The notes below the pieces were generated by a model. It ran no database searches, was not told the origin of the DNA, and saw only the letters and a list, made by a program, of their open reading frames with translations. The position numbers and the translations under genes were made by a program. A stretch of 64,000 nucleotides of DNA from an uncultured Colwellia sp. (GTDB taxonomy: Bacteria > Pseudomonadota > Gammaproteobacteria > Enterobacterales > Alteromonadaceae): NCBI GenBank assembly GCA_913061475.1, contig CAJXUN010000012.1, positions 28,013-92,012 of the forward strand, in the 5' to 3' direction. Below are positions 30,004-48,505 of the stretch, one piece after another. Every line of letters starts with the position of its first letter. Positions within the stretch are counted from its first letter, which is position 1.

Positions 30004-31218
30004 TTACAATGACTTGAATATATTATAAAGTCTAATATGCATGCCGTATTTATAGATAAAATAACAACAAACAGCTAAAAACAAATTAAATACAGCTATG
30101 TAGATAAATAGCATATCACCTCCAAATTCGAGCATCAGATATGACGCCAAAATAGGTCCTAAAAATCCGCCCGATGCGTACGCAAGTAATAACCAGCTGC
30201 TTGATGCGATCGCTTTATCATTAGTAAGCTTAGCGTACGTCATTGCAACACTAATAGGGTATAAACACCCCATAGGAGCTCCTATAAAAACACCTAACAA
30301 AGGCAGTGGTATCTCGGTGCTAAAAAATATCACAACTAGCGCTGACATAGCCATTAAGACAAGTAAAAATATTAAAGTGTATTCACGTGAATATTTATCG
30401 GCAACTTTTCCTACCGAACGCTGTAATATTGCTCCCGAAAAGATAACTGCTGACATAAAAATAGAGAGTTCTACCATTGAGGGCGTTATACTTTTAATGA
30501 AAACTGGTGATAAATTAAACACCGCACCAATCGCATTCCCCGCACAAAAAGCGCCTAAGATACCACAAGGAGCAAGCTTAATAAGAGTGGTGATAGAGAT
30601 AGGCTTAGCTACCACCACTGGCGGATTTTCAATCCTTATTAAGGTAATGGGCATTAATGCAAAACACGACAAAATAGCTGCGATTAAAAAAATAGTCGAT
30701 AAATTTTCAGGAGATAAATTAATCAGTAACTGACCTGACCCCATCGCTACATAAAATACAATTTGATGTAAAGCTAACAATCGACTTCTATTCGAATTAA
30801 TACTTAATGTGTTAAACCAGCTCTCAATAACAATAAGCATTACCGCAGCAGAAATACCACTAAGAACTCTTAAAACGCCATAAAATACAATACTGTTCGT
30901 TAAACTATGTACAATAGCTGTTACTGTCGCAATAGCAGCAAAGCCCGCAAACGCTCTGACATGGCCAACCTGGGCTATTGTTTTTTTTCCTTGATAAGTA
31001 CCGATAATCAAGCCTACTGAATATAATGCCATTACTTGCCCAATAGTGTTTATTGAAGAGCCAACATCTGACAAACTCAAAGGAATAGCCAAGCCAAGTA
31101 AGCTAATAGCTTGCATTTGCGCAAATAAGCTTAATAGCAGTGAAAAAAGAGTAATAATATTTTGTTTATCGTTAAAAGGAGTATTCATGGGAGAGTCTAT
31201 TGATTGAAAACTCAACAT
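30004..31218 (-). CDS. MFS transporter (YcaD-like)
   Basis: 404 residues with about twelve membrane helices. The segments SVGLIIGTYQGKKTIAQVGH and VIESWFNTL (helix 5) resemble the YcaD/YfkF group of the major facilitator superfamily. Neither of two possible starts (31218, or ATG 31188) has a strong ribosome site. A partial copy of the LacI-type operator (TGACTCCGAAGTAC) sits 10 bp upstream of 31218, and the gene is divergent from the TonB receptor. It probably carries the island's substrate or a product across the inner membrane; that is inference. Confidence 0.85.
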   Translation of the reverse strand: MLSFQSIDSPMNTPFNDKQNIITLFSLLLSLFAQMQAISLLGLAIPLSLSDVGSSINTIGQVMALYSVGLIIGTYQGKKTIAQVGHVRAFAGFAAIATVTAIVHSLTNSIVFYGVLRVLSGISAAVMLIVIESWFNTLSINSNRSRLLALHQIVFYVAMGSGQLLINLSPENLSTIFLIAAILSCFALMPITLIRIENPPVVVAKPISITTLIKLAPCGILGAFCAGNAIGAVFNLSPVFIKSITPSMVELSIFMSAVIFSGAILQRSVGKVADKYSREYTLIFLLVLMAMSALVVIFFSTEIPLPLLGVFIGAPMGCLYPISVAMTYAKLTNDKAIASSSWLLLAYASGGFLGPILASYLMLEFGGDMLFIYIAVFNLFLAVCCYFIYKYGMHIRLYNIFKSL

Positions 31219-31228
31219 TAACCCATAA

Positions 31229-31242
31229 TGACTCCGAAGTAC
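31229..31242. promoter_or_regulatory. Partial LacI-type operator (TGACTCCGAAGTAC)
   Basis: 11 of 14 positions match the island consensus TGACTTCGAAGTCA. It lies directly in front of the MFS gene. Confidence 0.5.
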
Positions 31243-31361
31243 TTGATATCGATCATCTTATAAAATTGTTATCAAATAGCGCTAATAAGTGAAAAATCAG
31301 AATATAAATCAGCCGAAATAGTAAGATAAAATGTGATTTATTGACACAAAACAAAATAAAA

Positions 31362-31375
31362 TGACGTCGAAGTCA
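31362..31375. promoter_or_regulatory. LacI-type operator (TGACGTCGAAGTCA)
   Basis: 13 of 14 positions match TGACTTCGAAGTCA. It lies midway in the MFS/TonB-receptor divergent region (31219-31630), which has no other gene. Confidence 0.7.
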
Positions 31376-31517
31376 AAATAATAAAAACAAAAACCCACAA
31401 AAATGAAACTATATTAATTCAATAATTAACAGCTAGTTAATACAAAAAGAATCAATTAAACTTTATTTTTTGCATTGATTACCAATGCAAGCACCACGAA
31501 CACACTTGACATGAAAA

Positions 31518-31531
31518 TGATTCCGAAGTAC
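31518..31531. promoter_or_regulatory. Partial LacI-type operator (TGATTCCGAAGTAC)
   Basis: 10 of 14 positions match the consensus, 100 bp before the receptor start. Confidence 0.4.
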
Positions 31532-31630
31532 AAATATAAGTATGAAGATTATATAAAAATCTTCGTTGTACTTATAAATTATAATAAAACAATACGCACT
31601 CTATTGATTGATAGAAGGAAAAATTTACTC

Positions 31631-34021
31631 ATGAAACCAGCTACAACAAAAAAGATCACAAAATCGGCACTAGCATTAGCAGTTATCAGTGCTTGCTTAA
31701 ACCAGTCTGTATCCGCTGAAGAAACAGTAAAAGATGATAGTTCTAATAGAATTGAAAAAATAACAGTGACAGCTAACCGTCACTCACAAGATTTACAGGA
31801 AGTCTCTTCTTCTATTACAGCATTAGGTGCAGACGATGTTGAGCGTGCGGGTATTATCGATATCACTGGTTTACAACAAGTTGTACCTGGATTAAAAGTA
31901 GGTAGTTCTGGCGGCGAAGTTCGTCCCGCAATGCGTGGTGCACGTACCAACGAAGTCGGTGTGGCTGGTACGGGTATAGCTGAACAAATTGTAGGTATTT
32001 TTCAAGATGGTATTTATGTTCCAACCACCACAGCTGGCATGGGTGCATTTGTAGATATTGAAAGAATTGAAGTGTTACGTGGTCCACAAGGTACACTTTA
32101 TGGTCGTAATACCTTCGCAGGTAGTATTAATGTTATTACCAATCGACCGAATATGGATGAAGTTGAAGGTAATATAAAAATAACTACTGGTGCTTATAAT
32201 CGCAGCGCCTATGAAGGTGTATTAAACCTGCCTTTAGCTGACAATTTAGCGACTCGTATTGTTGTTGCTTCAGACCGACATGATGGTTATATTAAAAATC
32301 ATTTTTTACCCGGTCCATCAGATGATTTACGTGAAAAAAATTCTTTTTACGCACGCTCTGTAACACGCTATGAAGCAAGCGATAACTTTAATGCTACCTT
32401 CCGCTTAGATTACTCTAAGAAAGATGCAAACTCTGAAGCAATTTGGGGCTATCAACAAATTGCAGGGTATTCATTAACTGAAACCGCACCGGGCTCTGGT
32501 GTTTTCAACCCTAATGCAACGGTAACTAAAGGCCATATTTATCAGCCTGGCGATGCTGAGCGTAATGATCTTGGCCCTTATGATGTCTATCGAAATGCCA
32601 TGTCTCTTGATAAACAAGAAGCGTTTTCTGCAACAGCGACCTTAGAATGGTACACCGATGTTGCTGACTTTAAATGGACATCAAATTATTCTGAATTAAG
32701 TGGTAAGCAATTTTACGATAATGACTACAGTGATGGCGGCTTAGACTTTGTTGGTGGCTTTGGTCGTCAAGATGATCAAAAAACAATCTCAACCGAATTA
32801 CAAATATCATCAAATCATGACGGTCCATTACAATGGATAGCTGGTTTGTATTATTTTGACCAAGAAGCCGATTGGGAATGGATTTGGCGTGAAGATACCA
32901 CAGGTAATGGTGTCGCTGATTCGTTAGTGGTACCAAGCTGGGGTAACCCAGATCACGATCCGCATACTTCAGATTCAATCGCGGTATTTGGCCAATTACG
33001 TTATGAAGTATCTGATGACGTACGTCTTGTGGGCGGTTTACGTTATAACAAAGATGAGAAAACATTCACTGGCGATGACATTCCTGATTGGGATGACTCA
33101 GCCGTGCTATGGAAAGCTGCACTTGAGTTTGATCAAAGCGAAGACCTAATGCTTTATGCTTCAGCTGCTACAGGTGTTCGTACAGGTGGTGCTAACGATG
33201 GTCGTGTTGTTTCTCGCGGCGCAGACCCACTTTATGACAATGAAGAAGTTATATCTTATGAAGTTGGTATGAAAAGCACCTTACTTGACGGAGATATGCG
33301 TTTAAACGTTTCACTATTTTTAAATGACTATGACGATGTAAAAGCACAATTATTCGCCGTTGCATGTAGTGATAGTACCAGTACGGATACAGTATTAGAT
33401 TGTGTTAACGCTGGTACAACACAAAGCTTTGAATATTACGAGAATGGCGGCAGCATAGAAACAACAGGCTTAGAAGTTGATATGCAATGGTACCCAACAG
33501 ACAGTTTATCGCTTTCTGGTACGTTTACTTGGCTTGATGCTAAATTTTCTGATGATTATGCTGTGGGTAATGAATTATTACGCCCATTACTTGGCTTAGG
33601 AAATATTGAAGACCGCCAAGACATCAATGATAACAACAGCCAATTTAGTTTTGCTGGCTGGTCACCTGCGATGGCACCAGAATATACTATCGGATTAGCG
33701 GCAACCTATGAAGTGGATTTAGGTAATGGTGCATTCATTATTCCGCACATTCAAGTAAATTACAGTGATGATTATTATGCTTTTGATACGAACATTCCAG
33801 AAGCCAAAGTTGATGCCCATGCAATGGTTGACGCACGTGTAAGTTGGATTGTGGATGAAAATGTGCAAGTAGACTTTTTTGTTAAAAACCTAACCGATGA
33901 AGAAGTACTTACTCGTGCCGTTGTACACTCACAAATTCGTGATGCTAAGCCACTGAACTCAGTACAAGCTAACTGGAATGACCCTAGAACTTGGGGCGTA
34001 AGTTTAAAATATACTTTTTAA
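31631..34021 (+). CDS. TonB-dependent receptor of the catabolic island
   Basis: 796 residues from ATG 31631; an upstream in-frame extension lacks a signal peptide and is rejected. The signal peptide is residues 1-29. A TonB-box-like IEKITVTA is at 41-48, then the plug domain with QDLQEVSSSI and RIEVLRGPQGTLYGRN, then the beta barrel, ending in an aromatic residue (SLKYTF). It resembles receptors of the marine 'Caulobacter-type' class that import organic molecules rather than siderophores. The operators upstream tie it to the LacI-type regulon. A strong terminator follows at 34041. Confidence 0.95.
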   Translation: MKPATTKKITKSALALAVISACLNQSVSAEETVKDDSSNRIEKITVTANRHSQDLQEVSSSITALGADDVERAGIIDITGLQQVVPGLKVGSSGGEVRPAMRGARTNEVGVAGTGIAEQIVGIFQDGIYVPTTTAGMGAFVDIERIEVLRGPQGTLYGRNTFAGSINVITNRPNMDEVEGNIKITTGAYNRSAYEGVLNLPLADNLATRIVVASDRHDGYIKNHFLPGPSDDLREKNSFYARSVTRYEASDNFNATFRLDYSKKDANSEAIWGYQQIAGYSLTETAPGSGVFNPNATVTKGHIYQPGDAERNDLGPYDVYRNAMSLDKQEAFSATATLEWYTDVADFKWTSNYSELSGKQFYDNDYSDGGLDFVGGFGRQDDQKTISTELQISSNHDGPLQWIAGLYYFDQEADWEWIWREDTTGNGVADSLVVPSWGNPDHDPHTSDSIAVFGQLRYEVSDDVRLVGGLRYNKDEKTFTGDDIPDWDDSAVLWKAALEFDQSEDLMLYASAATGVRTGGANDGRVVSRGADPLYDNEEVISYEVGMKSTLLDGDMRLNVSLFLNDYDDVKAQLFAVACSDSTSTDTVLDCVNAGTTQSFEYYENGGSIETTGLEVDMQWYPTDSLSLSGTFTWLDAKFSDDYAVGNELLRPLLGLGNIEDRQDINDNNSQFSFAGWSPAMAPEYTIGLAATYEVDLGNGAFIIPHIQVNYSDDYYAFDTNIPEAKVDAHAMVDARVSWIVDENVQVDFFVKNLTDEEVLTRAVVHSQIRDAKPLNSVQANWNDPRTWGVSLKYTF

Positions 34022-34040
34022 CACCTAGCCACCTTGTAAT

Positions 34041-34072
34041 AAAAAAGTCGCATAAATATTTGCGACTTTTTT
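34041..34072 (+). terminator. Terminator of the TonB-receptor gene
   Basis: AAAAAAGTCGCA ... TGCGACTTTTTT, a 12-bp stem ending in six T, 20 nt after the stop. Confidence 0.92.
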
Positions 34073-34473: not shown

Positions 34474-34872
34474 GAAATAGTCACTTCAAAACAACTCGCG
34501 CTTATCATCAAAATAAGTCTTACAACCATGGTGCATTTCCAATAAGAAAATAAACTTCAAATAATGAAAGTTCCAAAAAACATGACATCACTAATCATGC
34601 AGTAAGTGCAAATACATACGCTAACGTATTTATTGAGCCTAAATATCTTTTGAGTAACAGCCAGTCAAAGCTCAACGAGTGCTCTGCTAGATATCGCCTA
34701 TTATTTAACCAAGCATGGGCGAATTATATAGGCAAAATAATGGAATAAACTTATTTTCTACAGAACTTGTACCTATGATATTCCTTACACATCGCAGAAG
34801 CTCGGTGCCCATATGTGGAGAGAACGATGCCGTTCCACTTAAAATGCAGGTTTAAACAAGTTAAGAAATAGG

Positions 34873-35105: not shown

Positions 35106-35159
35106 GGTAGCTACAAAACATTGATATCGACAATATTTATTCTATTGTCGATATCAATT

Positions 35160-35484: not shown

Positions 35485-36348
35485 TCACGCAAACGGATAA
35501 GTTAAGTTATATCCTTTACATATTGCTAACCAATCAACCTGAAACTGTTCAGCAACAATCATATTATCATTCAGTTCTATTATTGAGATGACAGGGATCC
35601 GAATACGCTTAATAGTATCTCCATCAAGATAGTCACCGTCAATATGCCATTGCACAGCGACACTTGCTTTATCGCTATCAAAACAAATATTTTCTAACTG
35701 GCAATAGCTGCGATTCATACGGTTATGTAATTTAAGCTGAAACTTACGCAAAGCAAAAAACCCATGGTTCACACCAATACCAGCCACATTAATCTCGGCA
35801 TCTTTGCTATAAATTTTATCAAAGCTCGCTAAATGTTTTTCTTGCCAAATATTCCACCATTGCGTAATCGTTTGATTGACTCCATCAGGCATTTCACAAA
35901 CATCTTGAGGTACCGCATGATAGCTTTGCGGGTGCATTTGATGATCAAATTGACTCAAAAATAAGGGGTCTGGCGCAGGTAATTGTGCAATAACTTGCTC
36001 TGGCGTTAAAGCTAATAGTTGAGCAAGTTTCGTCGTATCAATAACACAATGCAGACGCTTAAAATGCGCATTGTTGTGCTCCAAAAATAACGTTAAGGAA
36101 ATCGACTTTTCTTCATTGTCAGTGGCTAGTTCAAAATAAATAGCAGAAAATTCTTTTCCTTGAACTACCTGTTTTTTTGATAATGTTAAAAAACCAAATT
36201 GCTCAAGACTTTTTAACCAAAGCTTTTCAATTTGCATATTGCCATAAGCCGTAAAATCATGCTGTTTCCATGACGTACTATGCAAAATACTTTGTGACAA
36301 TTGTGCAATATCACCTTTGGTATAAAGCTCTATGAGTTTGTTGAACAT
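35485..36348 (-). CDS. SnoaL/NTF2-like protein, island paralog 1
   Basis: 287 residues, soluble. The C-terminal half (from about 155) is an NTF2/SnoaL-like fold: WWNIWQEKHLASFDKIYSKD opens it and a beta-sheet follows, closing with IIELNDNMIVAEQFQVDW. The N-terminal half probably repeats the fold in weaker form. SnoaL-like proteins act as cyclases, hydratases, epoxide hydrolases or isomerases, or only bind ligands, so no reaction is assigned. It is the third gene of a minus-strand operon with paralog 2 (2-nt gap) and the sodium:solute symporter. Confidence 0.75.
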   Translation of the reverse strand: MFNKLIELYTKGDIAQLSQSILHSTSWKQHDFTAYGNMQIEKLWLKSLEQFGFLTLSKKQVVQGKEFSAIYFELATDNEEKSISLTLFLEHNNAHFKRLHCVIDTTKLAQLLALTPEQVIAQLPAPDPLFLSQFDHQMHPQSYHAVPQDVCEMPDGVNQTITQWWNIWQEKHLASFDKIYSKDAEINVAGIGVNHGFFALRKFQLKLHNRMNRSYCQLENICFDSDKASVAVQWHIDGDYLDGDTIKRIRIPVISIIELNDNMIVAEQFQVDWLAICKGYNLTYPFA

Positions 36349-36350: not shown

Positions 36351-37460
36351 TTAAACTCCCTGCTCTAAAAGCGGCAACGTTTGCCCTGACTCTCGAATAA
36401 TATTCGCATAAAGTGAAATTTCATCAAAAACAGTTACTTCTTTAATAACCTTTTTATTTCTCACTCTTAAATGTGTACAACCCAACACAAAGAAACGCTG
36501 TCCTTTTATCATATTCAACCTATTGTCATGCGGTGTATATGTACCCGCAACAGACCAACGTAGCGCAATATCAATTGTTTCTTCATCAAAGCCAACGACG
36601 GCAACATGATCAACCGTCATTTTCGCATCTGGACATTGCGCTAACCATTGAATAATAGTGCCGCTGATTTGTGCCAATCCTGTTGATTTTCTCCCGCCTG
36701 GCCACTGATGAGCGGCTGCCACATGATAAAAACCAGTGAGAGTTGAAAATTGCTTTTGATTAAAAAGTGTTTGTGCCCATGACTGAACAAATGTTTCTAC
36801 TGTCCAGTTTTCATCGGTTAAATTAAATATCTGACGATGTTCTTTTTGCCGAACACGTGCAAATTCTTCATCATACCATGTCGTGAATGTGTCATTTGGC
36901 ACTAACTTAGCAAAGTGTATCGCCGCATCAATGAGGTCTAAACCTAGTTGCGCAATAAGAAAACTATTATCTCTTACTAGCCACTCTTTAATGATTTTAT
37001 TTTCGAAACATACACAGTCTGCGATGGTCGTTACTCGGCCTGTTTTATTTGTGGCTAAACCAAAGTCTGAATTACCCGTATTCGTCATAATGCTGGTGAT
37101 CAAGTGAGACGAGTAATATGTTTTGTCTTCCTCCTCTTTCCAAATCACGTTTTCACCAATTAAACTACGATCGGGAAATGCTGCAATGGTTTTTAAGGTA
37201 TTTTGCACTACTTGCTCAACACACTCTGAATAGCCGCCCAACATATATACAGGGCAAATATCGCTATAGTATTGATAACAAAGTCCAACGTTTTTTTGCT
37301 CCCAAATGCGGTGGGTTATACGAATAATGTAATCAACAATATCAATAAACTCGCCATCGAATCCTGGCAGTATTTGCGTTTTGTCTCCTGAAGGCTCTAA
37401 TAACTTAGTAAGCGGCTGCCAATGCACTTTGGTGATTTTATTATTAAGTTTAAAACTCAT
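36351..37460 (-). CDS. SnoaL/NTF2-like protein, island paralog 2
   Basis: 369 residues, probably two tandem SnoaL-like domains. The first (about 45-185) contains DIVDYIIRITHRIWEQKNVG and EWLVRDNSFLIAQLGLD. The second (about 200-350) contains WAQTLFNQKQFSTLTGFYH and a REV-like core TVDHVAVVGFDEETIDIALRW. No signal peptide. It lies 17 nt after the symporter stop and 2 nt before paralog 1, so it belongs to that operon. The function is unknown; it differs in motif from paralogs 3-5 because it lacks WYGP(A/S)GIG. Confidence 0.75.
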   Translation of the reverse strand: MSFKLNNKITKVHWQPLTKLLEPSGDKTQILPGFDGEFIDIVDYIIRITHRIWEQKNVGLCYQYYSDICPVYMLGGYSECVEQVVQNTLKTIAAFPDRSLIGENVIWKEEEDKTYYSSHLITSIMTNTGNSDFGLATNKTGRVTTIADCVCFENKIIKEWLVRDNSFLIAQLGLDLIDAAIHFAKLVPNDTFTTWYDEEFARVRQKEHRQIFNLTDENWTVETFVQSWAQTLFNQKQFSTLTGFYHVAAAHQWPGGRKSTGLAQISGTIIQWLAQCPDAKMTVDHVAVVGFDEETIDIALRWSVAGTYTPHDNRLNMIKGQRFFVLGCTHLRVRNKKVIKEVTVFDEISLYANIIRESGQTLPLLEQGV

Positions 37461-39145: not shown

Positions 39146-39161
39146 TTGACTTCGAAGTCAA
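39146..39161. promoter_or_regulatory. LacI-type operator, perfect 16-bp palindrome
   Basis: TTGACTTCGAAGTCAA lies between the divergent symporter operon and SnoaL paralog 3. It has the even, CG-centred symmetry usual for LacI-family sites. Confidence 0.8.
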
Positions 39162-39337
39162 TTAAACATAGCATTGTTTAAAATATTTTAAAAGCAGAAC
39201 TTGTAATAATTGATGGACATTGTTGTTTAAATATATTATTTATTTTTAGCATGCTGCCCATTTTATAATAAACTTTAACAAATGAAGTGTATTAAATTCA
39301 GCTAAATAACACATCATAGACATTGAGGAAAATATTC

Positions 39338-40351
39338 GTGAAAAGCATTGAGTCACAAAATAAAGAACTCGTTTTGGCATATTACCAAGCAATAGAGCAA
39401 GCTAACTCCGAAACCATTGGCGATGTATTATCACACTACATGAGTAACGATTGCCATTGGCATGGTGTGTACCCTTTTAACGAACAGATTGGCCCTGAAG
39501 CGATCAACCATACTTTTTGGCAACCTTTTCTAAAGTCGTTTAAAAATATTCAACGCCGACAAGACATATTTATGGCCGGTGTCAGTGGCAACGATGGGGC
39601 TCATTGGGTCACCAGTATGGGCCATTTTATGGTGCAATTTGATCAAGACTGGTTGGGTATTCCAAGATCGGGTCAAGTGGCAATGATTCGCTACGCTGAT
39701 TTCAACTGCATAGAAAACGGTAAAATTGTTCGCGCTGGTTTTTTCTGTGACATTATCAGTGTTATGCATCAAGTGGGTATCAACCCGCTACCTCAAGCCA
39801 CTGGACACTCCTTTATTTATCCTGGCCCAAGGACACATGATGGTATTCAGTTGACAGACTTTGCTCCTGAAGAAGGCCAAAAAACAATAGCTATACTCAA
39901 TCAAATGATTGAAGACTTTTCACAACTTAACCAAACCGCTAATGACAATTACCCACCTGAAATATTGGAAAGAACATGGTCAAAAGATATGGTTTGGTAT
40001 GGCCCTGCGGGTATTGGAGCTACATACACCATCCCAAAATTTCAAGAACAGCACTCCTATCCTTTTAGGCAAGGTTTAAAAGATAAAAAATTTAATGGTC
40101 ATATTTGCCGTTACGCTGAAGGTAATTATGCTTGTTTCTTTGGATGGCCTAATTTAACCAGCACACCTTCTGGCGGTTTTTTAGGATTACCCGGTGGTAA
40201 TTTGCCTGCAGACATGCGTGTAGTTGATGTTTATCGCAGAGAAGGCGATAAACTTATTGAAAACTGGGTACTAATCGATATTCCTTATTGGTTAAAACAA
40301 CAAGGCTTAGATATTCTTGAGCGCAGTAGAAAAATAAACAATCCAAGTTAG
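39338..40351 (+). CDS. Two-domain SnoaL-like protein (ester-cyclase-type), island paralog 3
   Basis: 337 residues from GTG 39338 (GAGGA 8 nt upstream); a TTG 15 nt earlier is less likely. It consists of two SnoaL-like units, about 1-150 and 180-330. The second unit carries the group signature WYGPAGIG (220-227), then FFGWPNLTSTPSGGFLGLPG and NWVLIDIPYWLKQQGLD. Paralogs 4 and 5 share these positions. It is probably soluble and cytoplasmic. NTF2-like 'ester cyclases' are annotated by similarity to SnoaL, but no reaction is proven for this subgroup. Confidence 0.82.
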   Translation: MKSIESQNKELVLAYYQAIEQANSETIGDVLSHYMSNDCHWHGVYPFNEQIGPEAINHTFWQPFLKSFKNIQRRQDIFMAGVSGNDGAHWVTSMGHFMVQFDQDWLGIPRSGQVAMIRYADFNCIENGKIVRAGFFCDIISVMHQVGINPLPQATGHSFIYPGPRTHDGIQLTDFAPEEGQKTIAILNQMIEDFSQLNQTANDNYPPEILERTWSKDMVWYGPAGIGATYTIPKFQEQHSYPFRQGLKDKKFNGHICRYAEGNYACFFGWPNLTSTPSGGFLGLPGGNLPADMRVVDVYRREGDKLIENWVLIDIPYWLKQQGLDILERSRKINNPS

Positions 40352-40528: not shown

Positions 40529-41500
40529 TTAATCTAATTTCCCAGCAAATTGCTGTTTCATCATGGCGAAAACATCTAAGCCCATTTGCATACACATATC
40601 AATAATATCAATAGCCACCCAATTCTCTTTCAACAGTTCCCCGTCTCTACGCCAAATGTCCATAACACGTAAAGATAGCTCTTTATTACATGGTGGTAAA
40701 CCTAGCCATCCCCCTACAGAATGGGTGCCATGCATATGTGGCCAACCACCTGTTGCAACATAGTTATTATGTGCAACCAACGTCGCTTTATGATCAACAC
40801 TTCGATCAGGGAAGCTAAATACAAATGGCCCTTGATGATTATTTCTGAACCCTTCTATGCCACGTGTGGTACCAATACCTGCTGGTCCGTACCACATAAA
40901 ATCATCATGCCAAAAATTTTGTAACTGCATGCTTTGCAATGATTTACCATCAAAGCGACCTAGTTCATCAAGCATGTCAATAATAAGTTGTTGAGATTTT
41001 TTTGCTTCAATATCGTCTGATGCACCGTAACACAAGCCATCCATCGTTGTTGGCGGCATAACTAAGCCATCGTGACCTAGACTATTTCTTAATGGGTTAA
41101 CGCCCGCTTGATTCATTGCATCTAAAAAATCAACAATGATATAACACGTTTTAATTTTTTCATTTTTAAATTTAACAAGTTCGGTATAACGTAAATATAA
41201 GGTTCTATTAGTGGCAGGAATACCCAATAAATCCTGTGTAAATGTGCCAATAAAATAGCCCGTGCCTGCTGCCCATTGCTCTCCTTCGTATTGGCTTTCT
41301 AAATGAATAAATGGCTTTCTTTCAAGATCAGGTAACGCGGTAATTAATGGCTGCCAAAACTGACTTAACATTTGTGCTTTATTATGAAGATTATTAATCG
41401 GCGAACTAGCATGCCATTGCACATCTTCTGTAATATAGTCATCAATACTGTCAGTAGAAGATTTAAGTTGCTGATAAAATTTATCTAAAAGTGTCGTCAT
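40529..41500 (-). CDS. Two-domain SnoaL-like protein, island paralog 4
   Basis: 323 residues with the same two-unit build as paralog 3. The first unit ends near IIVDFLDAMNQAGVNPL (about 121-137), a segment that aligns with DIISVMHQVGINPL of paralog 3. The second unit has WYGPAGIG at 203-210, GGWLGLPP and ENWVAIDIIDMCMQMGLD. Its promoter is shared with paralog 5 across the operator at 41584. Gene duplication inside the island is evident from the motif order, but identity looks low, so the copies may have separate roles. Confidence 0.82.
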   Translation of the reverse strand: MTTLLDKFYQQLKSSTDSIDDYITEDVQWHASSPINNLHNKAQMLSQFWQPLITALPDLERKPFIHLESQYEGEQWAAGTGYFIGTFTQDLLGIPATNRTLYLRYTELVKFKNEKIKTCYIIVDFLDAMNQAGVNPLRNSLGHDGLVMPPTTMDGLCYGASDDIEAKKSQQLIIDMLDELGRFDGKSLQSMQLQNFWHDDFMWYGPAGIGTTRGIEGFRNNHQGPFVFSFPDRSVDHKATLVAHNNYVATGGWPHMHGTHSVGGWLGLPPCNKELSLRVMDIWRRDGELLKENWVAIDIIDMCMQMGLDVFAMMKQQFAGKLD

Positions 41501-41583: not shown

Positions 41584-41597
41584 TGACTTCGAAGTCA
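41584..41597. promoter_or_regulatory. LacI-type operator, perfect 14-bp palindrome
   Basis: TGACTTCGAAGTCA between divergent paralogs 4 and 5, matching the core of the 39146 site exactly. Confidence 0.8.
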
Positions 41598-41660: not shown

Positions 41661-42665
41661 ATGACAACATTACAAGACAAACACAAAACATTACTCGAAC
41701 CTTTAAGGGATGCTTTATATAACTTTGAAAATACAACCGTATTAACTGAACTAAATAAAGTATTAGCACCTAATGTACTCGTACAGTTGTCATTCCCACT
41801 TGAAACAATGCAAGGTGCACGGTCTTTTTTTGAAACTGCTTATGCCCCACTACATAAGGCTATTCCTGATTTAGAGCGTAGAGAAACCATAGTGGTGGCT
41901 GGTCATAGTGAAGACAAAAGTCACTGGGTTGGCTTTTGTGGCTATTACACCGGTAGCTTTGAAAGCAGCTGGCTAGATATCCCGCCTACAGGCCACCAAA
42001 TATCAATGCGATTTCATGAATTTTATCGTATTGAAAATAACCTTGTTGTCGAAATACAAGCACTTTGGGATATTCCTGAAGTGATGATGCAAGCGAATGC
42101 TTGGCCCATGGTACCAAGTTTAGGTAGAGAATGGCATGTGCCCGCACCAGCAACACAAGATGGCGTTAATATTCAAGATGCTCACTTAGCAGCGAAGAGT
42201 GTAAAGCTAGTTGAAGACATGTGTAACTCGTTAAGCGAATATGCCACAGGTGGTGTGGAAGCAATGGCGCTTGATAAATACTGGCATCCAAAATGTAGTT
42301 GGTATGGCCCATCTGGCATTGGTACAGGTAGAGGAATAAAAGGCTTTCGCAATTGGCATCAAATTCCCTTTCTAAATGGTATGCCTAATCGGGTGGGCGA
42401 TGTAGAAAAAGGTTACTTATTTGGTGAAGGTAATTATGTTGGTTTTACCGCATGGCCTGGTATGAAAATGACCATTAGCAACGATGGTTGGTTAGGTATT
42501 GCACCTGCAAATCAGCAAATAACCATGCGTAGTTTAGATTTTTGGCGTTGTGAAAATGGGCTACTTAGAGAAAACTGGGTACTAATTGATTTACTGCATG
42601 TATATCATCAACTCAACGTTGATGTGCTTGGCAGAATGAAGGACTTTAATAAAGCACGATATTAA
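41661..42665 (+). CDS. Two-domain SnoaL-like protein, island paralog 5
   Basis: 334 residues, two SnoaL-like units. The second carries WYGPSGIG (214-221), GRGIKGFRNWHQIPF, DGWLGIAP and ENWVLIDLLHVYHQLNVD. The first unit includes IPDLERRETIVVAG, matching LPDLERKPFIHLES of paralog 4. GAG-type ribosome site (gagagcgac) before ATG 41661. It ends at a bidirectional terminator shared with the aldolase operon. Confidence 0.82.
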   Translation: MTTLQDKHKTLLEPLRDALYNFENTTVLTELNKVLAPNVLVQLSFPLETMQGARSFFETAYAPLHKAIPDLERRETIVVAGHSEDKSHWVGFCGYYTGSFESSWLDIPPTGHQISMRFHEFYRIENNLVVEIQALWDIPEVMMQANAWPMVPSLGREWHVPAPATQDGVNIQDAHLAAKSVKLVEDMCNSLSEYATGGVEAMALDKYWHPKCSWYGPSGIGTGRGIKGFRNWHQIPFLNGMPNRVGDVEKGYLFGEGNYVGFTAWPGMKMTISNDGWLGIAPANQQITMRSLDFWRCENGLLRENWVLIDLLHVYHQLNVDVLGRMKDFNKARY

Positions 42666-42743: not shown

Positions 42744-43514
42744 CTAATTTTTACTCTTTGCTATTGCATCAGTAAATGTTTGCTTTAATTGCGCGGCCCC
42801 GCTCAGCATAAAATTATGATCAGAACCTAATAAAAACAAACTAACCCCCATAGCAATCCAACGCGGTAGTTCGTTCAAATCACCCACAAACATCCCACAA
42901 TTTTTTCCATGCTTATTTGCTGCATCAACGACTTTTTCAACAGCTGCCATTACATCTGGGTGGCTTGCATTCGTGTGCTCTAAAGCAACAGTAAGATCCA
43001 TGCGGCCAATAAAAATGCAGTCGATACCTTCTACTTGGCATATTTCATCAATATTATTTACCGCTTCCATATCTTCAATTTGGGCAATAACACAAGTTTG
43101 ATTAGCATTATTTTTTAAGTTTTCAGGTAGTTTTTGGGTTGTATAGCTGGCAAACCTTGTAGAGCCAGCATACCCTCGCCCTTCTGGGCCATAAAAGCAT
43201 TTTTTAACCACTGCGCGTGCATGTTCAGCATTAAGTATATGTGGTAGTACCACACCATCAGCGCCGATATCTAAAGCATTTAATATTGACGAGTTTTCTG
43301 TATTAGGTACACGAATAATCACCGGTTTTTGTTGAGACTTTGCCGCTAATACGCATTTATCAAGGTCAGCTCTATCAAAAGGAGCGTGTTCCGCATCTAA
43401 ACATAAAACATCAAGGCTTGTGTGCGCTAACACTTCCGTATTATGAAAATGTGGTGTTTTAATAAAAGTGCCAATAATAGGCTGTTTTTTAGCTAATTTA
43501 TTTTTTAAAGACAT
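42744..43514 (-). CDS. HpcH/HpaI-type class II aldolase
   Basis: 256 residues with a PEP/pyruvate-type TIM barrel. Visible are DAEHAPFDRADL near residue 40 (the metal/substrate region of HpaI-type enzymes), GADGVVLPHI near 84 and VIAQIEDMEAV near 142 with the metal-binding Glu. Relatives cleave 4-hydroxy-2-oxo acids to pyruvate (or a pyruvate analogue) plus an aldehyde, using a divalent metal. It is last in the operon hisD-like, lacI-type, hydrolase, aldolase, so it probably performs the final carbon-carbon cleavage of the pathway. Substrate unknown. Confidence 0.9.
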   Translation of the reverse strand: MSLKNKLAKKQPIIGTFIKTPHFHNTEVLAHTSLDVLCLDAEHAPFDRADLDKCVLAAKSQQKPVIIRVPNTENSSILNALDIGADGVVLPHILNAEHARAVVKKCFYGPEGRGYAGSTRFASYTTQKLPENLKNNANQTCVIAQIEDMEAVNNIDEICQVEGIDCIFIGRMDLTVALEHTNASHPDVMAAVEKVVDAANKHGKNCGMFVGDLNELPRWIAMGVSLFLLGSDHNFMLSGAAQLKQTFTDAIAKSKN

Positions 43515-43544
43515 GACAGTTAACCTATGATTTAGATGATGAAG

Positions 43545-44252
43545 TTACAATGAGTGTGACGAATACCATTTAGCCAATAATGCTGAAACCTGCTCTGCTT
43601 GCTCTAAAGGTGAGAAGTGCCCACACTCCTCAAGTAAAGCTATTTCACTATGCTTCAACGCCTCATGCATCATTTTTTGGTGTTGTGCTGGGCATATTTT
43701 GTCTTGCATTCCTCCAATAATAAGCACCTCAACGTCAAGTTTTTCTAGTGTCGATAATGAATCATCACGACCTTCTAATGCTAATGCTTGCGCTTCAAAA
43801 CAATGAGCACCTAATGTTTCAGCCATATCAACAATCGTTTTCTCATGTTGGCTGTTAGTGGTATATAGATAATTGGGAAGAAACGTTTTCGTAATTAAGT
43901 CGGTAAAAGCACCTGAACGGGCTTGTTTAATTTGTGCAGCGCGAGGCGCTTTTCGTTCAGGAAGATCACCATGACAATTACTATTTACTAGTGCCAATTT
44001 TGCAATAAGATCCGGTCGTGTTTTTGCTAATGCTATTGCCACAATGCCGCCCATAGAAAAGCCTATCAAGGCGCAAGGTTTGTTATTAGCTGCGACAATG
44101 ACTTTCTCAGCCATTTCTACCAGTGTTTTTTCGGTAGTAAATTGCACAACTTTAATGTTATCGCAAAGTGCTGCAAGATGGTTTACCTGATGAGTAAACA
44201 TTGCCCCCGTACACAAAGTGCCGGGTAAAATTAATATCGGTAATTGAGACAT
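43545..44252 (-). CDS. Alpha/beta hydrolase
   Basis: 235 residues. The nucleophile elbow is GFSMGG near residue 64, an Asp follows in GGMQDKICP and the His is in EECGHFSPLEQ, giving a full Ser-Asp-His triad. Length and motif spacing resemble enol-lactonase (PcaD/RutD-like) hydrolases. No signal peptide. It may open an ester or lactone in the island's pathway. It starts 61 nt after the regulator gene and 30 nt precede the aldolase gene. Confidence 0.88.
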   Translation of the reverse strand: MSQLPILILPGTLCTGAMFTHQVNHLAALCDNIKVVQFTTEKTLVEMAEKVIVAANNKPCALIGFSMGGIVAIALAKTRPDLIAKLALVNSNCHGDLPERKAPRAAQIKQARSGAFTDLITKTFLPNYLYTTNSQHEKTIVDMAETLGAHCFEAQALALEGRDDSLSTLEKLDVEVLIIGGMQDKICPAQHQKMMHEALKHSEIALLEECGHFSPLEQAEQVSALLAKWYSSHSL

Positions 44253-44313: not shown

Positions 44314-45321
44314 CTATATGCGTTTAACTGAATTACCTTTTATCAACGCGCCTGTTAAAACACGTGATTCTGGCGGTGAATCAGGATTTTCAATATGCTC
44401 TAATAACATTTCGATAGCAGCTTTTACTAGTTGCTCAAGCGGCTGCTTAATCGTTGTTATTTGATAGCTTTTCCAAGCTGAAGACGTAATGCCATCAAAA
44501 CCAACAACCGACATGTCATTTGGAATATGAATATTATGGTTATCACGTGCTTCATCAATAACACCAATAGCCATCGTATCGTTACTACAAATAACAGCAT
44601 CAGGCGTTGGATTTTTCTCAAGCCATTGAGCTAAGCAATCTCGACCTGATTGATAAGAGTAATCCCCAAACAATACAGATACATCTTTGGCACCGAACTG
44701 TTTTAATAAACTTAACGCTATTTCTCGTCGCTCGTTAGCAACATCTGAATCTTTAGGGCCAGACAAGACTAAATAATTTTTAGGATTACTCTGCTCAAGC
44801 TCAAGAATAAGCTGTTTAATACCTTGTTCGTGATTACAACAAACGGTATTTGCCATAGCACCTGGTACGTTTCGATTGTACAAAACGACCGGTATTTTAT
44901 GCTGTTCAAATTGTGCGAGTTTTTCACTTTCAAAATGTGCAGCAAGTGCAATAACGCCATCAACTTGGAATGTCCATATTTGCTCAAATAAGTCATCGAG
45001 CCCTTCAGCGTCATCTAAAGTAAACAACAATACACGCTTATTTCGCGCAGCCAGCTGCTTACTTACTTGTGAAAGCACTTCAGGATAATTAACGTTAGCT
45101 CGTGATGACACAATAACTGCCACCATACCCGACTGTTTAGTAATTAACATTCTGGCAATCGCATTAGGCCGATAACCCATTGCGTTTGCTGCTGTCATTA
45201 CCTTATCGCGTGTTTTTTGAGAAACACTTAAGCCAGGTCTAAATACACGTGAAACGGCAGATTGAGATACACCCGCTTCACGCGCAACGTCATAAGAAGT
45301 TACTTTTTTATTTCTAGTCAA
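44314..45321 (-). CDS. LacI-family transcriptional regulator of the island
   Basis: 335 residues starting at TTG 45321, only 3 nt after the hisD-like stop, with AGGG upstream. The helix-turn-helix TSYDVAREAGVSQSAVSRVF occupies about 8-27 and the hinge-helix region GYRPNAIARML follows. The rest is a periplasmic-binding-protein-like effector domain with PKDSDVANERR and GFDGITSSAWKS. Six matches to one palindrome in the island's promoter regions are its likely operators. Since one lies ahead of its own operon (46681), it should control itself. The inducer is unknown. Confidence 0.93.
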   Translation of the reverse strand: MTRNKKVTSYDVAREAGVSQSAVSRVFRPGLSVSQKTRDKVMTAANAMGYRPNAIARMLITKQSGMVAVIVSSRANVNYPEVLSQVSKQLAARNKRVLLFTLDDAEGLDDLFEQIWTFQVDGVIALAAHFESEKLAQFEQHKIPVVLYNRNVPGAMANTVCCNHEQGIKQLILELEQSNPKNYLVLSGPKDSDVANERREIALSLLKQFGAKDVSVLFGDYSYQSGRDCLAQWLEKNPTPDAVICSNDTMAIGVIDEARDNHNIHIPNDMSVVGFDGITSSAWKSYQITTIKQPLEQLVKAAIEMLLEHIENPDSPPESRVLTGALIKGNSVKRI

Positions 45322-45324
45322 TGT

Positions 45325-46599
45325 TTACCCTTTATATCTTCTCAAGCGGATATCAGCTTGCTCCTTATGCCCGGCAAAACCTTCAACTGCACATAATCTA
45401 GAGCAATATTCACCCACAATAACAGAAGCTTCTTCTGTTGCGCTTTGGAACGTACACGTTTTAATAAACTTACCTACCCATAAGCCGCCAGTATAACGTG
45501 CTGCCTTACGAGTTGGAAGTGTATGATTTGTACCGATACATTTGTCGCCGTACGATACATTCGTTTCTGGACCTAAAAATAGAGCACCAAAATTACGCAT
45601 ATTTTCTTTAAAATATGGTACGTTTTGAGTCATGACTTGCACATGTTCAAAGGCTAAGTCGTTGGCAACTTCAACCATTTCTTCGTAAGTATCACAAACG
45701 ATAACTTCGCCATAGTCACGCCATGCAGCACCTGCAACATCTGCGGTAGGTAAAATCGTCAACTGTCGTTCAATTTCTGCCAACGTATCTTTTGCCAATT
45801 TATGGCTATTCGTTAGTAATATTGCTGGAGATGTTGGCCCATGTTCTGCTTGACCTAATAAGTCAGCTGCACACAATTCACCATCAACACTTTCATCTGC
45901 AATAACAAGTGTTTCTGTTGGCCCCGCAAATAAATCAATACCTACTCGTCCAAACAATTGGCGCTTAGCTTCAGCAACAAATGCGTTACCAGGGCCAACA
46001 ATCATATCAACAGGTGCAATGGTTTCTGTACCAATAGCCATTGCGGCTATCGCTTGAACACCACCAAAACAGTAGATTTCATCTGCGCCGGCAAGATCCA
46101 TCGCCACAACAATCGCAGGAGAAGGTCTGCCATTAAAAGGAGGAGCGGCCGCGATTACACGCTTTACGCCCGCAACTTTAGCCGTTACCACACTCATATG
46201 TGCAGAGGCTACTAACGGATACTTACCACCCGGTACATAACAACCAACACTTTCCATTGGAATGTGTTTGTGACCTAACGTAACGCCTGGAAGTGTCTCA
46301 ACTTCAACGTCTTTCATTGAATCACGTTGAATTTGAGCAAAATTTCGTACTTGAGTTTGTGCCCATTTAATATCTTCAATCACACTGTCATCAAGTTCTT
46401 CGTAGCAGGCTGAAATTTCTTCCTTACTCAACCTAAATGACTTCGGATTCCACTTATCAAAGGTTTCAGAGTATTTTGCAATCGCGCTATCTCCGTCATT
46501 TTCAACATCTTCAATAATGGTTTCAACTGTTGACTTAACCTGCTGTAAAAATTCTTTTTTTTCTTCTTCTTCCTTACCTTTTTTAACATATTTTATCAT
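45325..46599 (-). CDS. HisD-like dehydrogenase (histidinol dehydrogenase family, catabolic type)
   Basis: 424 residues of the HisD family. [39 protein letters not shown] and [14 protein letters not shown] (each quoted in part) correspond to the conserved core; QAEHGPTS holds metal/active-site residues and the tail has [13 protein letters not shown] lies 8 nt before the ATG. True HisD oxidises histidinol, but this copy stands with a LacI-type regulator, an aldolase and a hydrolase. It therefore resembles catabolic relatives such as sulfopropanediol dehydrogenase (HpsN), which oxidise an alcohol to an acid with NAD+ in two steps. The substrate here is not known. Confidence 0.88.
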
Positions 46600-46680
46600 T
46601 TTATAGTCTCCGATATATTTTAGCTAAACTAAACATTATTTTCATAATGTTCTTGAATATGAACAAACCTTACGCAATAA

Positions 46681-46694
46681 TGACTTCGAATGCA
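46681..46694. promoter_or_regulatory. LacI-type operator (TGACTTCGAATGCA)
   Basis: 12 of 14 positions match the island consensus. It sits between the divergent hisD-like operon and the SDR-cupin operon, 20 bp before the SDR start. Confidence 0.65.
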
Positions 46695-46714
46695 ATAATG
46701 ATTTTGAGATATTT

Positions 46715-47458
46715 ATGAACGGCTTTAATAACAATTTACTTCTTGATAAAACAATCCTTGTAGCAGGTGCTGGTAAAGGTATTGGCTTGGCATGCGCACT
46801 CATGGCGGCAGAATGTGGTGCAAATGTAGTCGCGGTAGCAAGAACACAAAGTGACTTAGATGCCTTAATTGCACAGCACCCTAAAAATATAACGGGTTGG
46901 GCAATGGATGTATCTAGTAATGAATTTTTTGATCTTATGAATACACTGCCTTATTTACATGGGCTGGTTAATAACGCGGGCATTAACCGCGTAGGTCCAA
47001 TGGATAAACAAACGAATGACAACATTGATGCTGTTATCGACTTAAACATTAGAACCCTATATAAAATTTCTCGTGCAGCCATTGCTCCTATGAGACGAGC
47101 AGGAAACGCCTCCATTGTTAACATGTCTTCACAAATGGGGTTTGTAGGCTCACCCAACAGAACCCTTTATTGTATGAGTAAACATGCTGTTGAAGGCGTC
47201 ACAAAGGCAATGGCCGTAGAATTAGCTGCTGACAATATTCGCGTAAATACCGTAGCACCAACATTTGTTATGACACCGATGACGGCCCCTATGTTTGAAG
47301 ATGAAACATTCAAAACATTTGTATTCGATATGATCCCGCTTGGTCGTTTAGGCAAAGTAGAAGATGTAGCAAACAGCTGTACATTTTTGTTAAGTGAACT
47401 TGCTGCAATGATCACCGGTACAAGCATTAAAGTAGACGGTGGCTGGACAGCTCGATAA
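46715..47458 (+). CDS. Short-chain dehydrogenase/reductase (SDR)
   Basis: 247 residues, classical SDR. The cofactor loop is GAGKGIGLA near residue 18, NNAGINR near 88, the catalytic Ser in NMSSQMGFVG and YCMSKHAV (Tyr and Lys) near 152. It ends in TGTSIKVDGGWTAR. Such enzymes oxidise or reduce hydroxyl/keto groups with NAD(P). It is first in an SDR-cupin operon divergent from the hisD-like operon. Substrate unknown; the operator at 46681 puts it in the same regulon. Confidence 0.92.
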   Translation: MNGFNNNLLLDKTILVAGAGKGIGLACALMAAECGANVVAVARTQSDLDALIAQHPKNITGWAMDVSSNEFFDLMNTLPYLHGLVNNAGINRVGPMDKQTNDNIDAVIDLNIRTLYKISRAAIAPMRRAGNASIVNMSSQMGFVGSPNRTLYCMSKHAVEGVTKAMAVELAADNIRVNTVAPTFVMTPMTAPMFEDETFKTFVFDMIPLGRLGKVEDVANSCTFLLSELAAMITGTSIKVDGGWTAR

Positions 47459-47506
47459 GCCTACATCGTACCCCCCCCATTTTAGCCTAAACATAAGGTA
47501 ACAAAC

Positions 47507-48505
47507 ATGACCGTTAAAAACAGACTCATTAAATACGCCGACTTAAAACCATGTACAAACGCATTCATTGATACGCGTAGTCCAGGTAGTGACAAAAAAG
47601 AAAACTTCACACTTATTGGTCCTGGTGTTGCAGAAAACCCAGATCAACACATACATATTTCAATTCCTCATGGATTCAATATTGGTGGAGCAAGACAACC
47701 CAGTGGTTGCTTAAACTCACAACATAGTCACCTTACTGAAGAGGTATTTGTTATTCACAAAGGTACATGGTCTTTTATTAGTGGTGTTAATGCCGATGAC
47801 GGTAAAGTTATCCTCAATGAAGGTGACATTATTTCAATTCCAATGGATATTTTTCGAGGGTTTGAAAATGTTGGTGACGATATTGGTTATTTACATGCAG
47901 TACTTGGTGGTGATGATCCTGGCCGTGTTACATGGGCGCCTAAAGTGTTCGACCTTGCTAAAGAGTATGGGCTAGTCTTGCTCGAAGACGGCAGTTTAGT
48001 TGATACAACGTTAGGTGAAGTGGTCCCTAATGATAAAAAGCCAATGCCAGTAACCTCTGCCAAAGAAATTGCTCAACATCGAATTGTAAACAGTGACGAT
48101 ATGAATGCAATTGTGCAACGTACCGCTGACTTTGACTGGTCAAAAAACACATGTTTATCACAGTTTGACGGCGTTGAAGAAGCCGCGCTTGTTGGAGCAG
48201 CATGCCCACAGGAAGCTTTGCTAAGTAGTAAATTAAATTGGTCACATAACTTTGTGGTTCGCGCATTAAAATTAAGTGCCGGTGCAAAAATTAACGAACA
48301 TATCAGATACGAAGAAGAAGTGCTCTTTGTCCATCAAGGCGAAGTTGAAATAACGGTCGATGATGAAACGTTGTTGCTAGAAAAGGGCGACACTTTCACA
48401 ACTCCTATTGAATCTATACGAAGTTTCGCTCAAAAAGGTAATCAAGATTGCGTTCTTTATATTACTAGACGCCATGACCAACCTAAAGCGCCTAAATTCA
48501 TTTAA
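47507..48505 (+). CDS. Two-domain cupin protein
   Basis: 332 residues with a cupin barrel in each half. The first shows NSQHSHLTEEVFVIHKG (about 74-90), matching the HxH-E metal motif. The second shows INEHIRYEEEVLFVHQGEVE near 263, in which the first metal His pair is only partly kept. Bicupins act as oxygenases, isomerases, lyases or simple sugar-acid binding proteins. It follows the SDR gene by 48 nt and is followed by a hairpin, so it ends the operon. No role beyond 'probable metal enzyme in the island' can be given. Confidence 0.85.
   Translation: MTVKNRLIKYADLKPCTNAFIDTRSPGSDKKENFTLIGPGVAENPDQHIHISIPHGFNIGGARQPSGCLNSQHSHLTEEVFVIHKGTWSFISGVNADDGKVILNEGDIISIPMDIFRGFENVGDDIGYLHAVLGGDDPGRVTWAPKVFDLAKEYGLVLLEDGSLVDTTLGEVVPNDKKPMPVTSAKEIAQHRIVNSDDMNAIVQRTADFDWSKNTCLSQFDGVEEAALVGAACPQEALLSSKLNWSHNFVVRALKLSAGAKINEHIRYEEEVLFVHQGEVEITVDDETLLLEKGDTFTTPIESIRSFAQKGNQDCVLYITRRHDQPKAPKFI

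Follow-up and report, generated by a model that had tools for sequence, protein, structure and literature searches.

A candidate LacI-controlled catabolic regulon with several SnoaL-like proteins in an uncultured Colwellia and other bacteria

Do five SnoaL-like proteins encoded side by side with transporters, dehydrogenases, an aldolase and a LacI-type regulator serve one pathway, and what would that pathway degrade? The question is raised by positions 30004-48505 of a 64,000-nucleotide stretch of DNA from an uncultured Colwellia sp. (the whole stretch is hereafter the window; contig CAJXUN010000012.1), which is part of a 4.28 Mb genome in 88 contigs. An original prediction, made from the letters alone, had read this region as one LacI-governed catabolic island and knew of no described pathway for its gene set. 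We consider it reasonably probable that its 14 genes constitute a single LacI-controlled regulon that would take up a single small organic compound and degrade it by oxidation, opening and cleavage to pyruvate. Evidence for this reading includes the co-occurrence of the same genes in other genomes and a palindrome found in each divergent intergenic region of the island. The pathway steps themselves were deduced from protein families and conserved residues. A description of neither the gene set nor the pathway was found in the open-licence PubMed Central literature, in agreement with the prediction.

Gene content of the island

Open reading frames and Pfam matches gave 14 intact genes, and the families named in the original prediction were each confirmed by Pfam where it had placed them. 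All five of its SnoaL/NTF2-like proteins (287-369 residues) score above the curated Pfam cut-off, which places them in the SnoaL/NTF2-like superfamily. The genes are given below together with one remnant.

30004..31218, minus strand: MFS transporter (Pfam MFS_1, 1.5e-27); the intergenic region between it and the TonB receptor gene holds a candidate operator
31475..34021, plus strand: TonB-dependent receptor (Pfam TonB barrel, 9.9e-39; Plug, 6.6e-12); the longest open reading frame
34604..34833, minus strand: two fragments, lying in different frames, of a decayed Amidohydro_2 (lactonase-family) gene
35485..36348, minus strand: SnoaL A, 287 residues (Pfam SnoaL_2, 1e-07; 32.9 bits against a cut-off of 27)
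36351..37460, minus strand: SnoaL B, 369 residues (Pfam SnoaL, 2.2e-12; 47.4 bits against a cut-off of 28.4)
37478..39088, minus strand: SSS-type sodium:solute symporter (Pfam SSF, 3.7e-50)
39323..40351, plus strand: SnoaL C, 342 residues, double domain (Pfam SnoaL, 6.7e-13; 49.0 bits, two stretches)
40529..41500, minus strand: SnoaL D, 323 residues, double NTF2 fold (Pfam SnoaL, 1.9e-25; 89.5 bits)
41661..42665, plus strand: SnoaL E, 334 residues, double domain (Pfam SnoaL, 2e-20; 73.3 bits, two stretches)
42744..43514, minus strand: HpcH/HpaI-type aldolase (Pfam HpcH_HpaI, 2.6e-33; 115.6 bits against a cut-off of 25)
43545..44252, minus strand: alpha/beta hydrolase (Pfam, 2.7e-13)
44314..45321, minus strand: LacI-type regulator (Pfam LacI, 1.2e-14; Peripla_BP_3, 1.3e-22)
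45325..46599, minus strand: HisD-like dehydrogenase, GKYPL motif, of a third group (Pfam Histidinol_dh, 1.6e-143)
46715..47458, plus strand: short-chain dehydrogenase (SDR; Pfam adh_short_C2, 1.1e-53)
47507..48505, plus strand: bicupin (Pfam Cupin_2, 2.3e-16)

Co-occurrence of the island genes in other genomes

The original prediction would have failed had its genes not stood together elsewhere, and two samples of genomes demonstrate that they do. In the first sample, genome contigs were scanned with the 323-residue SnoaL D alone, which yielded 27 loci (numbered L in our series) with flanks of up to 10 kb. The SSS symporter is present at all 27, the aldolase and LacI genes at 22 each, the HisD-like gene at 21, the SDR and bicupin genes at 19 each and the hydrolase gene at 13. 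Part of the misses are due to contig ends; the hisD, SDR, aldolase and bicupin genes of L021 lie in L059, a separate part of the same contig (NZ_JAGHQT010000005.1). The nearest named matches of SnoaL D belong to Pseudocolwellia, Colwellia and Pseudoalteromonas.

The second sample comprised 398 genomes of the phylum, in which the HisD-like query gave 31 matches at E <= 1e-150, the window's own included; 29 of the 30 others were examined and one at a contig end was left out. Neighbours were labelled by their best BLAST match to a reference set that we built, and unlabelled open reading frames may hide further relatives. Among these 29 loci an SDR gene was found at 26, LacI at 24, SnoaL at 19, the bicupin at 17, an HpcH- or RraA-type aldolase likewise at 17, the hydrolase at 15 and a MetE-like gene at 13. 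SnoaL, bicupin and aldolase stand together at 15, and every one of the 17 bicupin loci holds a SnoaL gene. The core was found in Colwellia relatives, Pseudoalteromonas, Glaciecola, Halieaceae, Vibrio, Photobacterium, Rhodobacterales, Enterobacterales and sphingomonads, a co-occurrence conserved over five orders or more. In a protein set clustered at 90%, relatives number 3,161 for the SnoaL type (E <= 1e-30) and at least 6,849 for the bicupin (E <= 1e-20); the names carried by the best 120 of each are generic.

The clusters differ in composition. Ruegeria, Octadecabacter and Paracoccus have hisD, SDR, LacI, bicupin, hydrolase and RraA-type genes, a CUT1 ABC carrier and four to five SnoaL-type genes, to which Ruegeria and Octadecabacter add a MetE-like gene. 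The Marinovum cluster is similar: annotated SnoaL-type genes number three there, a MetE-like gene is present, an SDR is not annotated, and a gene named demethylmenaquinone methyltransferase takes the place of the RraA-type gene. A Klebsiella michiganensis plasmid from a fishpond carries LacI-hisD-SDR-MFS-hydrolase-HpcH-cupin with no annotated SnoaL within 10 kb, and a Pantoea dispersa plasmid from a leaf carries the same core with a second hisD and two SnoaL-type genes. The set lies on plasmids in Paracoccus alcaliphilus (soil) and Novosphingobium (freshwater) as well. As the set, without SnoaL genes or with fewer of them, is thus also present on plasmids from these non-marine sources, the 'marine' limit of the original prediction was too narrow. 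The archaeon Halobellus limi has five SnoaL genes, a MetE-like gene and an aldolase gene about 11 kb off, with no annotated hisD or bicupin there. TRAP transporter genes occur at 8 of the 27 loci of the first sample, all in Vibrio or Photobacterium, and CUT1-type ABC carriers at Rhodobacterales loci. Across clusters the carrier varies and the enzymes are kept. On a plasmid of Thioclava electrotropha (L107), where neither hisD nor SnoaL is annotated, a distantly related bicupin (35%) is accompanied by an HpcH-type aldolase and by a hydrolase; around these lie CUT1 genes and the genes for a 3-oxo-tetronate kinase, a TIM-barrel protein and a further aldolase.

The remnant in the window is a decayed Amidohydro_2 gene, which was not among the genes of the original prediction. 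The copies of L017, L019, L021 and L040 match the gap 34022-35484 by tblastn (E 4e-8 to 4e-7). Because these four relatives keep an open copy, which adjoins SnoaL A in each, the window strain seems to have lost an optional island enzyme. Against the fuconolactonase model the amidohydrolase scores 123 bits (cut-off 400).

Candidate operators of the LacI regulator

All 14 genes point outward from four divergent intergenic regions, and four start regions could therefore serve all of them. The palindrome TGACTTCGAAGTCA or a variant of it is present in each of the four regions, as follows (no strand is assigned to the sites).

31362..31375: candidate operator 1, 1 mismatch, between the MFS and TonB receptor genes
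39147..39160: candidate operator 2, perfect palindrome TGACTTCGAAGTCA, between the SSS and SnoaL C genes
41584..41597: candidate operator 3, perfect palindrome TGACTTCGAAGTCA, between the SnoaL D and SnoaL E genes
46681..46694: candidate operator 4, 2 mismatches, TGCATTCGAAGTCA on the minus strand, between the HisD-like and SDR genes

With up to three mismatches allowed, the window holds eight matches to the palindrome where 1.7 are expected, and none of 100 shuffles reached eight. Five of the eight lie in divergent regions of the island (two of them between the MFS and receptor genes), one lies within the HisD-like gene and two are off the island. At one mismatch or fewer, the whole 4.28 Mb genome contains three sites, and all three are in divergent regions of the island. 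The palindrome thus lies beside the island genes with no equally good site elsewhere in the genome, as a LacI-controlled regulon calls for, and the original reading of one LacI-linked catabolic island is supported.

The operator scan was extended to 26 related loci selected by hand. Exact copies were detected at 13, which represent 12 genomes (L020 and L089 share a contig); their hosts are Colwellia, Pseudocolwellia, Pseudoalteromonas, Glaciecola and close relatives. The TGCATTCGAAGTCA variant adjoins hisD at 10 of these 13 loci and also at L022, L025 and L036, which we take to be Halieaceae. In L022 and L025 a second copy of this variant separates SnoaL B from a gene for L-serine ammonia-lyase. 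On a Novosphingobium plasmid, which belongs to a different bacterial class, a two-mismatch copy stands between LacI and TonB receptor genes (L046, 17814-17827). Three further places in the genome of the window (C1:97784, C4:140341 and C6:59334) carry the 14-mer TGACTTCGATATCA or its complement, which may be the site of another regulator.

SnoaL-like proteins

An AlphaFold2 model of SnoaL D (predicted local distance difference test score 90.9) has two SnoaL-like halves and hence a double NTF2 fold; predicted structures cover two of the 14 island proteins, SnoaL D and the bicupin. Both halves share the NTF2 fold of SnoaL, AknH, ketosteroid isomerase, limonene epoxide hydrolase and LinA. The island proteins differ in having two fused domains of about 330 residues and three to five paralogues per catabolic cluster, whereas the solved structures among the matches listed have about 105-190 residues and come in many cases from biosynthesis. 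SnoaL_4 (PF13577) was ruled out as the family concerned, with zero matches in the genome.

A tree, from which the split, assembly-like genes of L038 and L039 were left out, placed orthologues of SnoaL A in Colwellia relatives, with more distant ones in Glaciecola. Orthologues of SnoaL B were found in Colwellia, Glaciecola and Halieaceae-type loci, and those of SnoaL C and SnoaL E at loci of Rhodobacterales, of Glaciecola and of the Halieaceae type. The old paralogues SnoaL C, D and E form separate orthologue groups retained across orders. This retention agrees with the predicted participation of several SnoaL proteins in the route.

Aldolase, hydrolase, short-chain dehydrogenase and bicupin

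The aldolase belongs to class II of the HpcH/HpaI family, with H43, R68, E147 and D173 conserved at 93% or more in 33 sequences. We assume the Glu and Asp to be metal-binding and the His and Arg to be catalytic, and the pattern is that of HpcH/HpaI, GarL and RhmA. Among NCBIfam models it scores best against GarL and HpaI, below their cut-offs. In Rhodobacterales an RraA-type gene (the type of the HMG/CHA aldolases) stands where the others have HpcH/HpaI, one or the other type being present in clusters that are otherwise similar. Neither the island aldolase nor the RraA-type protein reaches the cut-off of any named equivalog. Aldolases that release pyruvate are known among RraA-type proteins, and the exchange of one type for the other is therefore the strongest pointer to how the pathway ends, suggesting pyruvate release as its last step.

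The alpha/beta hydrolase matches best the enol-lactonase PcaD models (82-89 bits, below cut-off) and has its catalytic residues S66, D184 and H212 conserved in 32 sequences. For the SDR the highest-scoring model is a 'glucose 1-dehydrogenase' (192 bits, cut-off 215), and KduD was matched as well. By fold, the bicupin model resembles quercetin dioxygenase YxaG and other dioxygenases, ring-cleaving ones among them, as well as oxalate decarboxylase and vicilins. Residues H73, H75, E79 and R117 are invariant in 15 sequences and conserved in 41, and H50 is invariant in the 15 but does not reach 93% in the 41. Bicupin dioxygenases have a metal site of three His plus Glu, or of three His. In comparison with YxaG, gentisate/salicylate 1,2-dioxygenase and oxalate decarboxylase, to which its identity is about 10-15%, the island bicupin retains three of the four usual metal ligands in its N-terminal site and its C-terminal site is poorly conserved.

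A proposed route

The families fit the activities expected by the original prediction, namely import, hydrolysis, oxidation of an alcohol to an acid and aldol cleavage of the pyruvate type. In the route that we propose, the TonB receptor and the SSS or MFS carrier would take up the substrate, a task that may fall to the TRAP carrier at the eight Vibrio/Photobacterium loci and to the CUT1-type ABC carrier in Rhodobacterales. The HisD-like zinc enzyme would then convert a CH2OH adjoining a C-OH to a carboxylate with two NAD+, while the SDR would oxidise or reduce a second hydroxyl. The double-domain SnoaL proteins, each with a separate intermediate, may catalyse proton transfer on an enolisable compound (dehydration, isomerisation or addition of water). 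Bicupin and enol-lactonase-like hydrolase would open a ring or lactone. The last step would be cleavage of a 4-hydroxy-2-oxo acid by the HpcH/HpaI aldolase, or by the RraA-family protein in Rhodobacterales, with pyruvate and either an aldehyde or an oxo acid as products. As substrate, the best fit is a small ring or polyol compound that carries a carboxylate; in more general terms it is probably a small acidic compound with a route ending in pyruvate.

Several results weigh against one regulon with one route. Ten of the 29 HisD-like loci in the second sample have neither SnoaL nor bicupin; these, together with plasmids such as those of Emticicia, K84 and Shinella, indicate that this HisD group serves other pathways too. 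On plasmids of Klebsiella, Rhizorhabdus and Thioclava, bicupin and aldolase genes, accompanied in each case by a hydrolase gene, lack an annotated SnoaL neighbour, and SnoaL is thus not always needed. At two mismatches or fewer the palindrome occurs at 14 places genome-wide, less often than a reversed-pattern control (25), so that the operator argument rests on the sites with at most one mismatch and on their positions. At eight scanned loci from Vibrio, Photobacterium, alphaproteobacteria and enterobacteria (L031, L032, L042, L049, L050, L071, L043 and L067), no copy comes closer than two mismatches. That the LacI protein binds the palindrome is our inference. As to the enzymes, the RraA-type protein is below every NCBIfam cut-off and matches CHA aldolase models weakly. 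Seed-storage vicilins score equal to dioxygenases against the bicupin model, and the bicupin is without the usual fourth metal ligand, R117 standing where the motif-2 His is expected. With these points counted, the core of the original prediction, a pathway without a description that would employ several SnoaL enzymes under LacI control, survives the co-occurrence comparison.

Possible substrates

Within the single-regulon reading, a non-phosphorylative sugar or sugar-acid route is a possible, still tentative substrate class. The scheme, which we hold no more firmly, would have the SDR form a lactone, the hydrolases open it and a SnoaL protein or the bicupin replace the usual dehydratase. In its equally tentative end, the aldolase would release pyruvate and an aldehyde from a 2-oxo-3-deoxy acid, with that aldehyde or its alcohol then oxidised by the HisD-like enzyme. 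LacI regulators and CUT1-type ABC transporters are typical of sugars, and both occur in the clusters. The models matched by the SDR (glucose 1-dehydrogenase, below cut-off, and KduD) and, likewise below cut-off, by the aldolase (GarL, HpaI) and the amidohydrolase (fuconolactonase) point the same way. So do the Thioclava plasmid, where bicupin, aldolase and hydrolase stand in a sugar-acid setting with the 3-oxo-tetronate kinase, and the Novosphingobium copy, which adjoins glycoside hydrolase and IlvD/Edd genes. The island thus offers candidates for the dehydrogenase, lactonase and aldolase of such a pathway, but Pfam detected in it no IlvD/Edd, enolase-type or FAH-type enzyme and no known dehydratase family. 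Three to five SnoaL proteins and the MetE-like gene would be left without a reason, and the TRAP carriers of Vibrio and Photobacterium point to an acid rather than a neutral sugar.

The sugar-acid route is likelier than a second proposal, that the regulon encodes the bacterial breakdown of mycosporine- and gadusol-type sunscreens, a pathway so far missing; this proposal we regard as doubtful. The seven-carbon cyclohexenone core of these compounds carries C(OH)-CH2OH. A HisD-type enzyme would turn this group into an acid; SnoaL proteins would cleave off the amino-acid arms and, much like scytalone dehydratase, either dehydrate the enolic ring or isomerise it, and the quercetinase-like bicupin would open the 2-oxygenated enone. 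The resulting C7 product, 4-carboxy-4-hydroxy-2-oxoadipate, is a known aldolase substrate, which the HpcH- or RraA-type enzyme would split into pyruvate and oxaloacetate. This carbon count is our own reasoning from the structures of these compounds. Hints come from the hosts (seawater, sea ice, solar saltern and leaf), from a relative of the O-demethylase DesA/LigM in one haloarchaeal cluster (Halobellus; below both cut-offs) and from the MetE-like gene: of 25 genomes, 13 have it, each as a single copy located no more than 10 kb from the HisD-like gene. A further hint is the operator-bearing region shared by SnoaL B and the L-serine ammonia-lyase gene in L022 and L025 (713 bits in L022, cut-off 345). 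The lyase was found at 2 of 27 loci; it also stands in a sarcosine oxidase cluster adjoining SnoaL genes in Vibrio pelagius WXL662, which makes the serine argument weak. The MetE-like gene is absent from 12 of the 25 genomes, the window's own included, and this, with the lack of DesA/LigM relatives in the other genomes (below), weakens the sunscreen proposal; the sugar-acid and aromatic neighbours in other clusters count against it as well. A passage of one report suggests that Vibrio harveyi hydrolyses shinorine and porphyra-334 to mycosporine-glycine (PMC3083659). A gene-level account of bacterial mycosporine breakdown was not found in the open-licence PubMed Central literature, which also counts against the proposal. 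A 'cyclohexane hydrolase' idea, based on a thiamine pyrophosphate (TPP) enzyme beside HisD in Shinella and Priestia, was rejected: acetolactate synthase gave these proteins 391 and 406 bits and IolD only 301 and 306, all below cut-off, and the idea was therefore dropped as support for a ring substrate.

Less likely again is a methoxylated-aromatic, lignin-type route, in which the HisD-like enzyme would act on an aryl side chain and 4-carboxy-4-hydroxy-2-oxoadipate with its aldolase would form the end. SnoaL enzymes that cleave lignin dimers exist, and the DesA/LigM relative of the Halobellus limi SnoaL cluster (470 bits against a cut-off of 800, and 432 against 580) would suit such a substrate. 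HisD-SDR pairs elsewhere stand beside FAD monooxygenase, FAH and VOC genes, and the Rhizorhabdus wittichii copy is near FAH, intradiol dioxygenase and FAD monooxygenase genes. DesA/LigM relatives were, however, found in none of 24 other genomes (E <= 1e-40; 22 with HisD-like and SnoaL genes) in a search that had no known positive, and Pfam detected no extradiol dioxygenase in the island. LacI and sugar-type ABC carriers, both present in the clusters, are unusual for aromatics.

The HisD-like dehydrogenase

Could the island instead serve the catabolism of the sulfonate 2,3-dihydroxypropane-1-sulfonate (DHPS), with its HisD-like enzyme being HpsN? The nearest solved chain is indeed HpsN of Cupriavidus (1.3e-114, 387 bits), compared with 292 bits for the best chain named histidinol dehydrogenase, and one annotator has called a homologue hpsN. 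The likeness to HpsN (PF00815) and hpsNOP extends to family, zinc and catalytic residues and SDR pairing, and makes four-electron oxidation of a CH2OH the likely chemistry; the catalytic residues are conserved across relatives. A passage of PMC11382572 assigns sulfonate binding to the His of the HpsN motif GRY[A/S]H. In its place, all 43 HisD-like sequences inspected have G[KR][YF]P[LMI]; the window enzyme reads GKYPL, as do all of a set of 20 rows. The neighbours differ too, being SnoaL, bicupin and aldolase genes; by Pfam the island genes include an SDR but no alcohol dehydrogenase of PF00107/PF08240 and no member of the sulfolactate sulfolyase, CuyA or Xsc families. A DHPS route through HpsN was rejected on the motif difference and the absent sulfolyases, and we rate it highly improbable.

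A biosynthetic role is not indicated either. The enzyme passes the NCBIfam hisD model TIGR00069 (465 bits against 243.8), which does not separate the groups. Of the G-S-A-P-L-type motif of biosynthetic HisD it shares the last-position Leu, but it has GKYPL and no his genes adjacent. The enzyme represents a third group of its family (mostly GKYPL or GKFPM), neither biosynthetic HisD nor HpsN. Of 381 plasmid records that match it, 125 do so at 60-80% identity; the plasmid genes close to it in sequence (L043, L054, L055, L056 and others) are mostly annotated hisD and once hpsN. The GKYPL-type motif was inspected in the plasmid loci L043, L046, L047 and L050.

Two further settings of this HisD group were observed. 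At L047, L057 and L064 (including Emticicia and Rhizobium rhizogenes K84) it stands with an SDR beside FAH and VOC genes, in part with FAD monooxygenase or cyclase-family genes too, which suggests a second, aromatic-like pathway with this enzyme. At L058, L082 and L087 (including Shinella) the neighbours are a TPP-dependent enzyme, a CUT1 ABC carrier and one or two GMC oxidoreductases.

There remains the explanation that unrelated metabolic genes are adjacent by chance, as single-genome catabolic islands can be patchworks; it is contradicted by the co-occurrence across at least five orders and by an operator copy in each divergent region, and we dismiss it as next to impossible.

Flanking genes and other features

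The flanks are unrelated to the island, with trp genes to the left (the last ends at 29450) and glnS to the right (49049). At 22453-29450, six open reading frames resemble a trpE-G-D-CF-B-A operon, of which trpCF, trpB and trpA were identified by Pfam and the others by position and length only. The reading frame of the TonB receptor has an internal signal-peptide-like start at about 31631, as judged by eye from the translation. An Rfam scan of the window found one tRNA and nothing else.

Significance

The cluster is widespread and not a local curiosity. A third HisD group would correct gene counts for histidine biosynthesis and DHPS catabolism. If the single-regulon reading holds, a defined catabolic role would be gained for double-domain SnoaL proteins, a type whose relatives with one domain come chiefly from the biosynthesis of polyketides, and the cluster provides experimental handles on it in the form of an operator candidate, an inducer screen and several assayable enzymes.

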